The notes under the pieces were generated by a model. The model had not been told where the DNA came from. It saw nothing but the letters and a program-made list of their open reading frames with translations, and searched no databases. The position numbers were made by a program, and so were the translations under genes. Shown here piece after piece: positions 7,570 to 55,675 of a stretch of 64,000 bases of DNA (positions are counted from its first letter, which is position 1; the number at the start of each line of letters is the position of its first letter). The stretch is from Bacillota bacterium (GTDB lineage: Bacteria; Bacillota; Clostridia; Oscillospirales; Oscillospiraceae), in the NCBI GenBank assembly GCA_021770445.1, contig JAETQY010000005.1:62001-126000 (forward strand). The letters run 5' to 3'.

Positions 7570-7616
7570 ATGGTAAACGCCCTCTTTCGTGGTCTTTCGT
7601 CCCCCGCGGGGAAGAG

Positions 7617-7756
7617 CCTTCCCCTTTAGGGGAAGGTGGCACGGCGGAGCCGTGACGGATGAGGCAGTCGCCGCAGAATGGTTACTTCGTATGTTTTGCT
7701 TCGCAAAACACCTCATCAGTCTCGCTGTGCTCGACAGCTTCCCCTAAAGGGGAAGC
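7617..7756. repeat. Inverted pair of two-hairpin repeat units inside spoIIIA
   Basis: Two imperfect copies of one unit face each other. Each has an outer hairpin (CTTCCCC-TTTA/TAAA-GGGGAAG; 7617-7636 and 7737-7756), a second short stem (CACGGC/GCCGTG at 7640-7654 in the left copy) and an inner end GATGAGG or its complement CCTCATC (7657-7663; 7711-7717). A separate TTTTGC-TTC-GCAAAA hairpin lies between them at 7694-7708. The whole block could fold into one long RNA hairpin in the spoIIIA transcript. The same unit recurs at 28472-28607. No transposase is nearby, so it resembles REP/MITE-type sequence. Confidence 0.75.
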
Positions 7757-7788
7757 CTTTTTCCGCAGCCAATAAGGATCGCTTTTAT

Positions 7789-26669: not shown

Positions 26670-28115
26670 ATGTATCTCTATAATTCCGCCACCCACAAGA
26701 AGGAAGAATTCACCACCCACACCCCCGGCCATGTGGAGATGTACACCTGCGGCCCCACGGTGTACCACTTCGCCCACATCGGCAACCTGCGGTCCTACAT
26801 CATGGAGGACGTGCTGGAGAAGTTCCTGCGCTATGACGGCTACGACGTGAACCGAGTCATGAATATCACCGACGTGGGCCACCTGTCCAGCGACGCCGAC
26901 ACCGGCGAGGACAAGATGCTCAAGGGGGCCAAGCGGGAGCACAAGACGGTGATGGAGATCGCCCAGTACTACACCGACGCCTTCTTTGACGACTGCCGTA
27001 AGCTGAACATCAAGACCCCCGACGTGGTCCAGCCCGCCACCGGGCTCATCGACGAGTTCATCAAGCTGGTGGAGGGCCTGCTGGACAAGGGTTACGCCTA
27101 CGTGGCGGGGGGCAACGTGTACTTCGACACCTCCAAGCTGGAGCGGTACTACATCTTCAACGACCACGACGAGGAGGACCTGGCGGTGGGCGTCCGAGAG
27201 GGCGTGGAGGAGGACCAGAACAAGCGCAACAAGAACGACTTTGTCCTCTGGTTCACCAAATCCAAGTTCGAGGACCAGGCTCTGAAGTGGGACTCCCCCT
27301 GGGGCGTCGGCTACCCCGGCTGGCACATCGAGTGCTCGGGCATCTCCCTGAAGTACAACGGGGAGTACCTGGACCTGCACTGCGGCGGCGTCGACAACGC
27401 CTTCCCCCACCACACCAACGAGATCGCCCAGTCCGAGGCCTACATCGGCCACCCCTGGTGCAGGCAGTGGTTCCATGTCCACCACCTGAACACAAATTCC
27501 GGCAAGATGTCCAAGTCCAAGGGGGAGTTTCTCACTGTCTCCCTGCTGGAGGAGAAGGGCTACGACCCCATTGTCTACCGCTTCTTCTGCCTCCAGAGCC
27601 ACTACCGCAAGGGGCTGGTGTTCTCCTGGGAGAACCTGGACAACGCCGCCGGGGCGTTCACCAAGCTCATCGCCAAAATTGCCGCCCTGGACCCGGCGGA
27701 TGGCCCGGTGGACGAGGCTGTAGTGGCGGAGTACAAGGAGAAGTTCCGCGCCCAGGTGGGCAACGACCTGAACACCGCCCTGGGAGTCACCGCCCTGTAC
27801 GACGCCCTCAAGGCCAAGACCAACGGCGCCACCCGGCTGGCCATCCTGGACAGCTTTGACCAGGTGCTGTCCCTGTCCCTGCTGGACAAGGCGGCCAAGG
27901 TGCGGGAGGAGCAGAAAAAGCAAAAGACCGCCTCCCAGGGCGGCTATGCCATCACTGGCGAGGGCGACAGCGCCGTGGACGCGCTGGTCCTCCAGCGGTA
28001 CGAGGCCAAGAAGGCCAAAAACTTCGCCGAGGCCGACCGCATCCGGGATGAGCTCAAGGCCCAGGGCATCGAGATCACCGACCTGCCCGGCGGGGCCAGC
28101 TGGAAGAGGGTATGA
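26670..28115 (+). CDS. cysS: Cysteinyl-tRNA synthetase
   Basis: A 481-residue class I synthetase charging tRNA-Cys. The zinc-site cysteine and HIGH-like motif appear as TCGPTVYHFAHIGN near residue 27. IECSGIS and the GGVDNAFPHHTNE segment follow, and KMSKSKGE is near 278. Length is normal. The end, LPGGASWKRV, is unusual only in that its coding sequence is present twice: the second copy lies 0.5 kb downstream beyond an inserted DUF559 cassette. Confidence 0.96.
   Translation: MYLYNSATHKKEEFTTHTPGHVEMYTCGPTVYHFAHIGNLRSYIMEDVLEKFLRYDGYDVNRVMNITDVGHLSSDADTGEDKMLKGAKREHKTVMEIAQYYTDAFFDDCRKLNIKTPDVVQPATGLIDEFIKLVEGLLDKGYAYVAGGNVYFDTSKLERYYIFNDHDEEDLAVGVREGVEEDQNKRNKNDFVLWFTKSKFEDQALKWDSPWGVGYPGWHIECSGISLKYNGEYLDLHCGGVDNAFPHHTNEIAQSEAYIGHPWCRQWFHVHHLNTNSGKMSKSKGEFLTVSLLEEKGYDPIVYRFFCLQSHYRKGLVFSWENLDNAAGAFTKLIAKIAALDPADGPVDEAVVAEYKEKFRAQVGNDLNTALGVTALYDALKAKTNGATRLAILDSFDQVLSLSLLDKAAKVREEQKKQKTASQGGYAITGEGDSAVDALVLQRYEAKKAKNFAEADRIRDELKAQGIEITDLPGGASWKRV
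28083..28115 (+). repeat. Direct repeat, left copy (cysS 3' end)
   Basis: 33 bp covering the last ten codons and stop of cysS. It matches 28612-28644 at 31 of 33 positions and both copies encode LPGGASWKRV plus a stop (TGA here, TAA in the right copy). Confidence 0.88.
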
Positions 28116-28525
28116 TTCACGAGACACAAAATCCGACACTGAAACCTGCTGCCCAGAAGCTACGAAAAGATATGACGAAGGAAGAGCGCCACCTGTGGTA
28201 TGATTTTTTGAAAACTCTTCCGGTAAATGTCCACCGGCAAAAAGTGATCGGCCCCTATATTGTAGATTTCTATATTTCTCGGGCAAAAATTGTCGTCGAG
28301 TTGGATGGTTCCCAACACTATGAACCTGAACACAGACAGATGGATGCTGCTAGGGACGAGTATTTAGCAGCTTTGGGATTACGGGTCTTGCGCTACTCCA
28401 ATGCAGATGTCCGAGATCGGTTTTCTGCAACGTGTACGGATATATGGAACCATGTTTTCCCTACGGGGGGACCTCATCCGTCATTTGCTCCGCAAATGCC
28501 ACCTTCCCCTAAAGGGGAAGGCTAA
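28112..28525 (+). CDS. DUF559 endonuclease-like protein
   Basis: A 137-residue protein with the DUF559 domain, a Vsr/restriction-endonuclease-like fold. Visible motifs are LRKDMTKEERHLWYDFLK, then the presumed catalytic core GPYIVDFYISRAKIVVELDGSQH and LRVLRYSNADV. The start overlaps the cysS stop (ATGA), so translation is coupled. The last 18 or so residues are encoded by a repeat unit (28472-28522). It lies in a cassette between duplicated cysS ends. Its biological target is unknown. Confidence 0.82.
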   Translation: MIHETQNPTLKPAAQKLRKDMTKEERHLWYDFLKTLPVNVHRQKVIGPYIVDFYISRAKIVVELDGSQHYEPEHRQMDAARDEYLAALGLRVLRYSNADVRDRFSATCTDIWNHVFPTGGPHPSFAPQMPPSPKGEG

Positions 28526-28611
28526 AGGTGGTGCAACCAGCCATAGCGCAGCAAAAAAGGCTTCCCCTTTAGGGGAAGCTGGCACGGCGAAGCCGTGACT
28601 GATGAGGCCGA
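28116..28611 (+). mobile_element. DUF559/repeat cassette inserted at the cysS 3' end
   Basis: About 496 bp bounded by two near-identical 33-bp copies of the cysS end. It holds the DUF559 gene and a divergent pair of repeat units. The right copy is followed by a terminator, the likely original cysS terminator. The simplest reading is insertion with a target duplication or a gene-end-restoring recombination; it carries no recognisable transposase or integrase. Confidence 0.65.
28472..28607. repeat. Divergent pair of two-hairpin repeat units
   Basis: Left unit 28472-28522 (reverse orientation) and right unit 28559-28607 share the outer CCCCTTTAGGGG hairpin, a second short stem and a GATGAGG end with the pair at 7617-7756. 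Here the CCCCTTTAGGGG hairpins face inward, while in spoIIIA they face outward. The left unit encodes the C terminus of DUF559. Confidence 0.78.
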
Positions 28612-28644
28612 CTGCCCGGCGGGGCAAGCTGGAAGAGGGTATAA
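28612..28644 (+). repeat. Direct repeat, right copy (orphan cysS 3' end)
   Basis: Matches 28083-28115 at 31 of 33 positions and still reads LPGGASWKRV then TAA. It is not joined to any ORF in that frame. The conserved coding sense points to a recent duplication. Confidence 0.88.
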
Positions 28645-28646
28645 AA

Positions 28647-28676
28647 AAAGAGGCTCCTCAGTGCGGGAGCCTCTTT
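28647..28676. terminator. Bidirectional terminator after the cassette
   Basis: An 11-bp stem AAAGAGGCTCC/GGAGCCTCTTT with a T-run on the minus strand. It probably served cysS before the insertion and now ends the DUF559 transcript and the opposing gene. Confidence 0.75.
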
Positions 28677-55565: not shown

Positions 55566-55675
55566 CAAATAAAGTGATTCCCGCTCCCTGTGGGGGCGGG
55601 AACAGGGAAAGTTTCGCCCGCCTTTTCAAAGGCGGCGGGGTCCGGGGCAGAGCCCCGGGACAGAAAGGATGGTCA

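Follow-up and report, generated by a model that had tools for sequence, protein, structure and literature searches.

The closest described counterparts of the element treated here are the repetitive extragenic palindromic (REP) sequences and their doublets (REPINs), together with the REP-associated tyrosine transposases (RAYTs); the REPIN/RAYT features compared here are those given in PMC3116915, PMC8049555, PMC8266576 and PMC3733652. In IS200/IS605 elements, and perhaps in REPs, guide tetranucleotides located 5' of the palindromes select the cleavage sites (PMC8266576), and for the CGTC REPs, one large class, a dedicated transposase is apparently lacking (PMC3733652). Here we analysed 64,000 nucleotides (nt) of an Oscillospiraceae genome (GCA_021770445.1, contig JAETQY010000005.1, positions 62,001 to 126,000), referred to as the window, in which the gene cysS is followed by a gene of the Pfam family DUF559, an inverted pair of two-hairpin repeat units and a second copy of the cysS 3' end. 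The main finding is a wider DUF559-repeat system, beyond the duplication at cysS, and this cassette probably represents one copy of a system like REPIN/RAYT whose enzyme is an unrelated nuclease of the Vsr/EDxHD fold. The parts of the locus are as follows.

26670..28115, plus strand: cysS, cysteinyl-tRNA synthetase, the host gene (open reading frame and Pfam tRNA-synt_1e)
28083..28115, plus strand: copy 1 of the cysS 3' end, in frame and used (sequence comparison)
28112..28525, plus strand: DUF559 gene, putative endonuclease of 137 amino acids (PF04480, E 3.3e-27; Vsr/EDxHD fold)
28472-28521, plus strand: left unit, whole (two-hairpin unit)
28472..28479, plus strand: 5' tag of the left unit, CCTCATCC
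28482..28498, plus strand: hairpin 1 of the left unit
28502..28521, plus strand: polypyrimidine hairpin 2 of the left unit (CCTTCCCCTAAAGGGGAAGG)
28560-28607, minus strand: right unit, whole (two-hairpin unit)
28560..28579, minus strand: hairpin 2 of the right unit
28583..28597, minus strand: hairpin 1 of the right unit
28600..28607, minus strand: tag of the right unit (CCTCATCA, minus strand)
28612..28644, plus strand: copy 2 of the cysS 3' end, unused and probably native
28650..28674, plus strand: inverted repeat, probable original cysS terminator (read by eye; like the repeat after the single cysS end in locus L048)
7612..7760, no strand assigned: second inverted pair of the same unit subtype, dispersed, tags facing inwards, no adjoining DUF559 gene

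The two copies of the cysS end (28083-28115 and 28612-28644) are identical at 31 of 33 positions, and either can close the cysS reading frame. An earlier note on this DNA had reported this duplication around DUF559 and the repeat pair, an overlap of the DUF559 ATG with the cysS stop, and a palindromic unit that encodes the DUF559 C terminus. All three are present: the overlap reads ATGA, and the DUF559 residues from about 121 on (the last ~17) are encoded by the left unit. The units form an inverted pair with arms of 27 nt that are 93% complementary. DUF559 is the sole gene read between the two cysS ends, no integrase or recombinase was found there, and no intron or intein was seen at the locus. 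The note had also placed the original terminator after copy 2; an inverted repeat similar to that in L048 lies there, although its T run is short and it was not among the hits of the terminator scan. Exact copies of the unit core CTTCCCCTNNAGGGGAAG number 47 in the 2.64 Mb window genome, against 0 for the reversed-pattern control, and by hand count they comprise 19 close pairs and 9 singles, so the units are dispersed and mostly form inverted doublets. This genome has one further DUF559 match, which adjoins a Mg-chelatase-type (comM/yifB-like) gene and has two-hairpin units of a different subtype on both sides.

DUF559 genes and two-hairpin units are associated in the Clostridia. DUF559 matches were found in 29 of 64 genomes of the genus and in 55 of 150 genomes of the family (41 of 72 genera), giving a set of 109 loci, with L042, L044 and L045 dropped as shorter copies of L115, L114 and L107. 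Within 200 nt of DUF559, tandem double hairpins occur at 1.9-3.7 per kb in 100-nt bins, and beyond 500 nt at 0-0.45 per kb. A double hairpin lies between -300 and +400 in 83 of the 99 full-length standalone DUF559 genes, as compared to 0 of 3 DUF559 domains in very large open reading frames and 1 of 7 weak or related hits. In a second set of 79 named Clostridia-type loci, taken from the best 80 of at least 572 relatives, the same strict detector found a double hairpin in 54; the flanks of 18 of the 25 misses were inspected, and most show, by eye, units with shorter or interrupted stems. With a looser pyrimidine-hairpin detector, 174 of all 178 loci have a hairpin within 500 nt (5.2 versus 0.35 per kb). 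The units are found upstream and downstream of DUF559 genes, on one or both sides, and these genes adjoin many different genes besides recurring at cysS.

The DUF559 loci of the genus were compared with a matched control from the same genus, in which 37 places with HicA matches, some of them below the curated cut-off, gave 30 loci, of which 25 were full-length and used. None of the 25 HicA loci is flanked by a double hairpin, against 37 of 43 DUF559 loci (p 2.8e-13). This result largely refutes the view that DUF559 is passive cargo, with unit pairs that either enter variable intergenic spots beside whatever small gene is there or act as its terminators. Units do also insert at hot spots without DUF559, and some hairpins resemble terminators, but the presence of units upstream as well as downstream of the gene and the correlation of their arms with the DUF559 sequence, described below, do not fit it, and we regard it as highly improbable.

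Of the 159 DUF559 genes with enough flank (among the 178 loci), 52 lie between direct repeats of 30 nt or more, whereas only 7 of 120 control positions taken from these loci do (p 1.7e-8). This enrichment is not independent of that of the units, because many of the repeats consist largely of units. Of the earlier expectation that DUF559 genes would be flanked by units and by duplicated gene ends, the first half describes the usual state, and direct repeats are enriched as well, but most of the flanking duplications that were read contain repeat units, not gene ends. In one locus, L144, the start of the downstream gene, located 25-240 nt downstream of the DUF559 domain, is repeated ~500-717 nt upstream of the domain as a 217-nt stretch with 83% identity.

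Outside Clostridia, 23 loci were fetched from plasmid-collection and phage records and from E. coli K-12, and 21 were used: 20 from other phyla and one (Thermoactinomyces) from Bacilli. Two were left out, L345 (a phage contig) and L350 (DUF559 inside a long open reading frame). A pyrimidine hairpin is present within 300 nt at 18 of the 21 DUF559 loci, at 3.1 versus 0.26 per kb. These are one locus of Azospirillum, those of Synechocystis, Photobacterium, Shinella, Picosynechococcus, Pseudanabaena, Sphingobium, Qipengyuania and Methylobacterium, four of Deinococcus, two each of Sinorhizobium and Sphingomonas, and E. coli ycjD, with one short hairpin. Thermoactinomyces, Novosphingobium and the other Azospirillum locus were negative, although in this Azospirillum locus similar repeats were read by eye. 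The DUF559 genes of this study come from Clostridia, Pseudomonadota, Deinococcota and Cyanobacteriota. Together with the clostridial counts these data support the earlier proposal of DUF559 and repeats as a linked system. In D. psychrotolerans the repeats make a long inverted repeat around the DUF559 gene. The rhizobial RIME and cyanobacterial repeats may resemble the DUF559 units.

The positions of these genes vary. Three Deinococcus species (L336, L337, L353) have DUF559 in one and the same hydroxyphenylacetate (hpa) cluster, but each in another of its intergenic regions. In Sphingomonas parapaucimobilis it interrupts operons, separating transhydrogenase subunit genes in one case and sufB from sufC in the other (L342 1477-1872; L348 1465-1875). 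The gut phage contig MT835749 (L345) carries a DUF559 gene with a nearby double hairpin, a possible transfer route.

Unit arms and DUF559 sequences vary together. Across 135 loci, DUF559 identity correlates with hairpin-arm similarity (Mantel r 0.31; maximum of 300 permutations 0.08), and the correlation persists among pairs below 70% identity (r 0.28; largest permutation 0.09). Copy number is linked to the cognate gene as well, with exceptions given below. For three unit types (CTTCCCCT, CCCCCTTT, for which forward and reverse counts were averaged, and CTCCTTT), 5/5, 5/5 and 5/5 genomes with the matching DUF559 type hold at least 9 cores, compared to 3/59, 6/59 and 3/59 of the other genomes. 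The cut of 9 cores was chosen after the counts were known; a Mann-Whitney test of the cognate core counts, which is free of that cut, gave p values of 1.5e-5, 1.2e-4 and 5.7e-6. The DUF559 type of each genome was assigned by reading, and the few units next to the DUF559 gene were counted with the rest. G007, with a cysS-type DUF559 gene that has an internal deletion, holds 1 core, and G051, with a relic only, holds 0 cores of this type.

Unit pairs are also polymorphic in presence and absence. A 20-kb stretch of G007 (L302) was searched in six relatives, three of which gave both flanks of the unit pair at L302:5804-5955. In G055 and G009 the pair is replaced by 6 nt, and in the sister genome, G054, this point is occupied by a pair of another subtype. 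At L302:13437-13620, G007 and G009 share one subtype, G062 has another, and G054, G055 and G063 have other sequence. Filled, empty and swapped sites show that unit pairs are polymorphic and re-use sites; these intergenic sites of L302 are hot spots for units.

A further regularity concerns the sequence of the units themselves. Since the palindromic hairpins are found on both strands, an unoriented comparison was uninformative, and it was replaced by orientation through geometry, with hairpin 1 directly 5' of the pyrimidine hairpin 2. This yielded 302 units in 146 of the 178 loci and 162 distinct tag/arm pairs. The 5' tag matches the reversed, not reverse-complemented, arm of hairpin 2 at 0.81, against 0.71 with shuffled arms, and 0 of 200 shuffles reached the observed match; in the second set alone the mirror match has a z of 8.3. 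Complement-type comparisons of tag and arm showed no excess in the 302 units. The match is fixed in register: in the 278 of 302 units with linkers of 1-4 nt (92 distinct), identity under the geometric anchor is 0.70 and falls to 0.40-0.48 at shifts of 1-3, and the 23 such units of the second set gave 0.59 versus 0.38-0.45. The last tag base and the first hairpin base covary, with counts of C-C 69, A-G 52, A-C 5 and C-G 1 (p 1.4e-28 for those four combinations, given that the search word admits only A or C in the tag and that 18 units with a hairpin A or T lie outside the Fisher test). Under the geometric anchor the pairs are C-C 36, A-G 24, T-C 20 and few others, with a mutual information of 0.71, whereas none of 500 permutations gave more than 0.18. 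The mirror match is also present in the other-phyla set, where it was not reached by any of 500 shuffles (z 5.3); the direct match was reached by 20 of 500. The tags are of several types (CCTCATC, CTCCCTC, CCCTCTC, AATCCTC, AATCCCC), with no fixed GTAG tetranucleotide.

A tag that equals the reversed pyrimidine arm fits the needs of a parallel pyrimidine-motif triple helix on the hairpin, and the mirror code may be read physically in this way. Our tentative reading, held with less than even confidence, is that DUF559 is the mobilising nuclease of a repeat class that crosses phyla and is read by a parallel, triplex-like code of the tag on the purine arm. In detail, this would be a pyrimidine motif with C on G:C and T on A:T, and hairpin 1 or a short linker would serve as the connecting loop. 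By analogy, the guide tetranucleotides of IS200/IS605 are a possible functional parallel to the 5' tag.

Several observations weigh against these readings. A direct, non-mirror comparison of tag and arm is weaker but also above shuffles (z 5.0, 0/200), and the 3' side shows some mirror match as well, with z 1.8 (9/200) for all units and 2.2 (3/200) in the second set. The strict double-hairpin detector was positive at only 3 of 14 loci of the first other-phyla batch, since a short linker mostly takes the place of hairpin 1 in these loci. At least 9 cores without the matched DUF559 type occur for CTTCCCCT in G062 (108), G006 (26) and G060 (10), of which G006 and G060 carry DUF559 genes beside related CTTCCCCC units; for CCCCCTTT in G002, G010, G011, G058, G061 and G062; and for CTCCTTT in G007 (42), G010 (34) and G027 (12). 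G010, G027 and G061 have units and no DUF559 match at all, and in G002, counted among the carriers for CTCCTTT, the DUF559 gene is interrupted by a stop. These unit-rich genomes may reflect loss of the enzyme after spread, missing contigs or the action of a related enzyme. No clear target duplication was seen at the one clean empty site, L302:5804-5955. Generally, the loci are not fully independent, as orthologous sites recur, and the statistics ignore host phylogeny.

The protein itself is consistent with a nuclease. Pfam matches of the window protein are DUF559, MTES_1575 and DUF2726 only, and no HUH (Y1) tyrosine transposase was found beside the units. An AlphaFold2 model has a mean predicted local distance difference test score of 83.8. 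The nearest solved folds are NGO0050 (3hrl) and the catalytic domain of the homing endonuclease I-Bth0305I (3r3p; profile E 0.003, Foldseek E 1e-4), and Vsr folds (1vsr, 1cw0) match more weakly (Foldseek E 0.007 for 1vsr), and the profile and Foldseek matches point to a Vsr-like EDxHD/PD-(D/E)XK catalytic fold, as named Vsr-like in the earlier note. Among 50 DUF559 sequences 18 columns are invariant and include acidic and histidine positions, as expected of a nuclease; the conserved D52 and E63 are candidate active-site residues.

A nuclease of this fold could also be a host-protective or repair enzyme that resolves cruciforms or stalled forks at repeats mobilised by something else, and DUF559 would then stay beside the repeats because it acts there. 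The Vsr-like fold agrees with this explanation, as does a Caulobacter DUF559 protein for which an SOS-linked, Vsr-like repair function has been proposed (PMC12907096). By itself, however, it leaves unexplained the rise of copy number with the cognate gene, the matching of subtypes and the flanking hairpins in several phyla, and we consider it unlikely.

To place the duplication in the window, we compared the cysS 3' end in the genus. The cysS tail was matched in 55 of 64 genomes, of which 54 reach the gene end (G049 was omitted, as its contig stops inside cysS), and 380,409 nt downstream of cysS in these 54 genomes were scanned for second ends with a cut-off of at least 27/33. Compared with all cysS ends, the reversed-sequence control never scored above 23/33, and one apparently unrelated forward place, in G054, scored 24/33; the 31/33 duplicate is therefore not a chance match. 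Most genomes have a single cysS end, often followed by a terminator-like repeat as in L048. A second end was found in four: G000, G022 and G030, each with DUF559, and G020, with a HicA/HicB-like pair. Empty sites with a single end and a terminator, which the earlier note had called for in relatives, are thus present, in L048 and in L095 of G006, the sister on the cysS tree of the filled and duplicated G030 (L093). In G058 a candidate second end matches its own cysS end at 18/33 and that of another genome at 24/33, which is not above chance, and only from the neighbouring bases is it read as a putative decayed copy.

Downstream of cysS, G000, G022, G030, G058, G012, G003 (shortened) and G007 (internal deletion) have a DUF559 gene or much of one, and in G012, G003 and G007 no second copy of the end was detected. 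In G062 and, within the limits of its contig, in G045, cysS is followed by units but not by DUF559. In G051 a short DUF559 relic (L116 1796-1890) is fused directly to the cysS end, with the repeats and the second copy lost. The ATGA overlap, from which translational coupling had been proposed, is present in the DNA of G000, G022 and G007 and absent in G030 and G058. G020 is 80% complete and has no DUF559 match; its HicA-like and HicB-like proteins, both just below the Pfam cut-offs, are encoded between the cysS end and a second end with 27/33 identity (L077 1724-2430), and a terminator-like repeat is present.

These states bear on the idea, central to the earlier note, that DUF559 is a site-specific element of gene ends, comparable to a free-standing homing endonuclease that targets gene 3' ends and brings a replacement end, with 33-nt duplications as the result. 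The duplicated end with DUF559 in G000, G022 and G030, with copies that begin at about the same codon, would agree with it, as would the similarity to I-Bth0305I and the occurrence of at least two DUF559 types (G000-like and G012; G003 by unit subtype) at one gene end. However, G020 has the duplication around a HicAB-like pair and no DUF559 match, the single instance found of the state that the earlier note had named as a refutation (both copies in a relative lacking DUF559), G003, G012 and G007 have DUF559 at cysS without a detected duplication, and most other flanking duplications read are unit-containing sequence. We judge this explanation quite unlikely, and DUF559 as the maker of the 33-nt duplication was demoted because of G020. 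We conclude that the duplicated end is not a DUF559-specific product and that small insertions recur at the cysS 3' end, which is a hot spot for them.

Nor do the data support one ancestral insertion at this site. Filled sites are patchy on the cysS tree, and the DUF559 genes of G030 and G058 are 71.9% identical at the nucleotide level, against 92.0% for cysS. The DUF559 gene of G012 groups with genes of other genera in the tree order (support values were not considered, and the G003 gene, L114, was too short for this tree), and therefore more than one DUF559 type reached the cysS site. Independent arrivals or replacement fit better than one ancestral insertion, without being proven.

For the 33-nt copy alone, we lean towards homology-facilitated illegitimate recombination, in which a donor cysS end with its cargo was joined and the native end was left downstream. 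This origin needs no DUF559 activity and is part of our best explanation. Copy 2 of G030 is followed by the same terminator sequence as in the empty sister G006 (L093, L095), copy 2 of G022 has decayed, the cargo of G020 is unrelated, and at the G020 junction there is short similarity between the hicB end, GATGTGCCCTG, and cysS, GACGTGCCTGG. Against it, in three genomes the starts of the copies fall at almost one codon, a pattern not necessarily expected from random joining at short homology, and the copies of one genome resemble each other more than those of other genomes, as separate site-specific events could also produce. The duplicated cysS end is probably a by-product of insertion.

Returning to DUF559 as the proposed engine of a REPIN/RAYT-like system, we infer that it mobilises the units and is the processing enzyme dedicated to this family of tagged palindromes. 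It would recognise the folded unit with the tag docked on the hairpin, as with the guides in IS200/IS605 and perhaps REP systems, and cut at or beside the unit. Repair or replication at the break would then copy paired units into new intergenic sites, often duplicating neighbouring DNA. The cassette of the window would have arrived downstream of cysS, an insertion hot spot, and illegitimate joining on its right side would have left the native cysS end and its terminator downstream, the extra 33-nt end being that of the recipient after the donor cysS end and cargo had joined at short homology.

The data suggest that DUF559 is an overlooked engine of a widespread class of mobile bacterial repeats. 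Many bacterial palindromic repeat families have no known enzyme, and DUF559 is a candidate engine independent of the RAYT solution; for a Pfam family of unknown function, the match to the units suggests a role that can be tested. It would also account for apparent gene chimeras like the DUF559 proteins with a repeat-encoded C terminus. The mirror code would be an unusual and testable mode of DNA recognition, and if it is true, tag/arm pairs that evolve together with their enzyme would give rise to orthogonal repeat populations in one genome.

Other searches added little. Rfam gave four matches, all far below gathering scores, and PADLOC and PHROGs gave weak matches only. At 55618-55658 the window holds a double hairpin of another kind (GGGGTCCGGGGCAGAGCCCCGG), outside the DUF559 unit pattern. 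No description of a DUF559-repeat system was found in open-licence PMC papers, preprints being outside this scope, and the literature on REPIN/RAYT, Clostridia REPs, Vsr and palindromes, F. prausnitzii repeats and RIME, including PMC2267715, gave no link to DUF559.

Compared with known systems, DUF559 resembles the EDxHD homing endonucleases such as I-Bth0305I (family described in PMC3943268) and the Vsr mismatch nucleases in fold and sequence. It differs from them as a stand-alone domain of ~120 amino acids that is tied to dispersed palindromes instead of one target gene; a cytosine methyltransferase, which would link it to Vsr, is absent from the window cassette, neighbouring genes not having been searched systematically. 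Like miniature inverted-repeat transposable elements and insertion sequences, the units are short, non-autonomous inverted-repeat elements that are present or absent at orthologous sites; unlike them, they have DUF559 as the sole cassette gene and show no clear target duplication at the one clean site. The closest likeness is to the REPtrons formed by REP/REPIN sequences and RAYT (TnpA-REP), which share the tagged palindromic units dispersed between genes, often as inverted doublets, the small enzyme gene flanked by cognate units and, with the exceptions seen here, the higher number of units in enzyme-bearing genomes. The tandem clusters of REPINs that include flanking sequence (PMC3116915) resemble the direct repeats around DUF559 genes. 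In contrast to RAYTs, the enzyme here has the Vsr/EDxHD fold and is not an HUH tyrosine transposase, the clostridial unit has two hairpins, and the tag, which is the fixed GTAG in RAYT systems, consists of 7-8 variable, mostly pyrimidine bases that mirror the hairpin arm.

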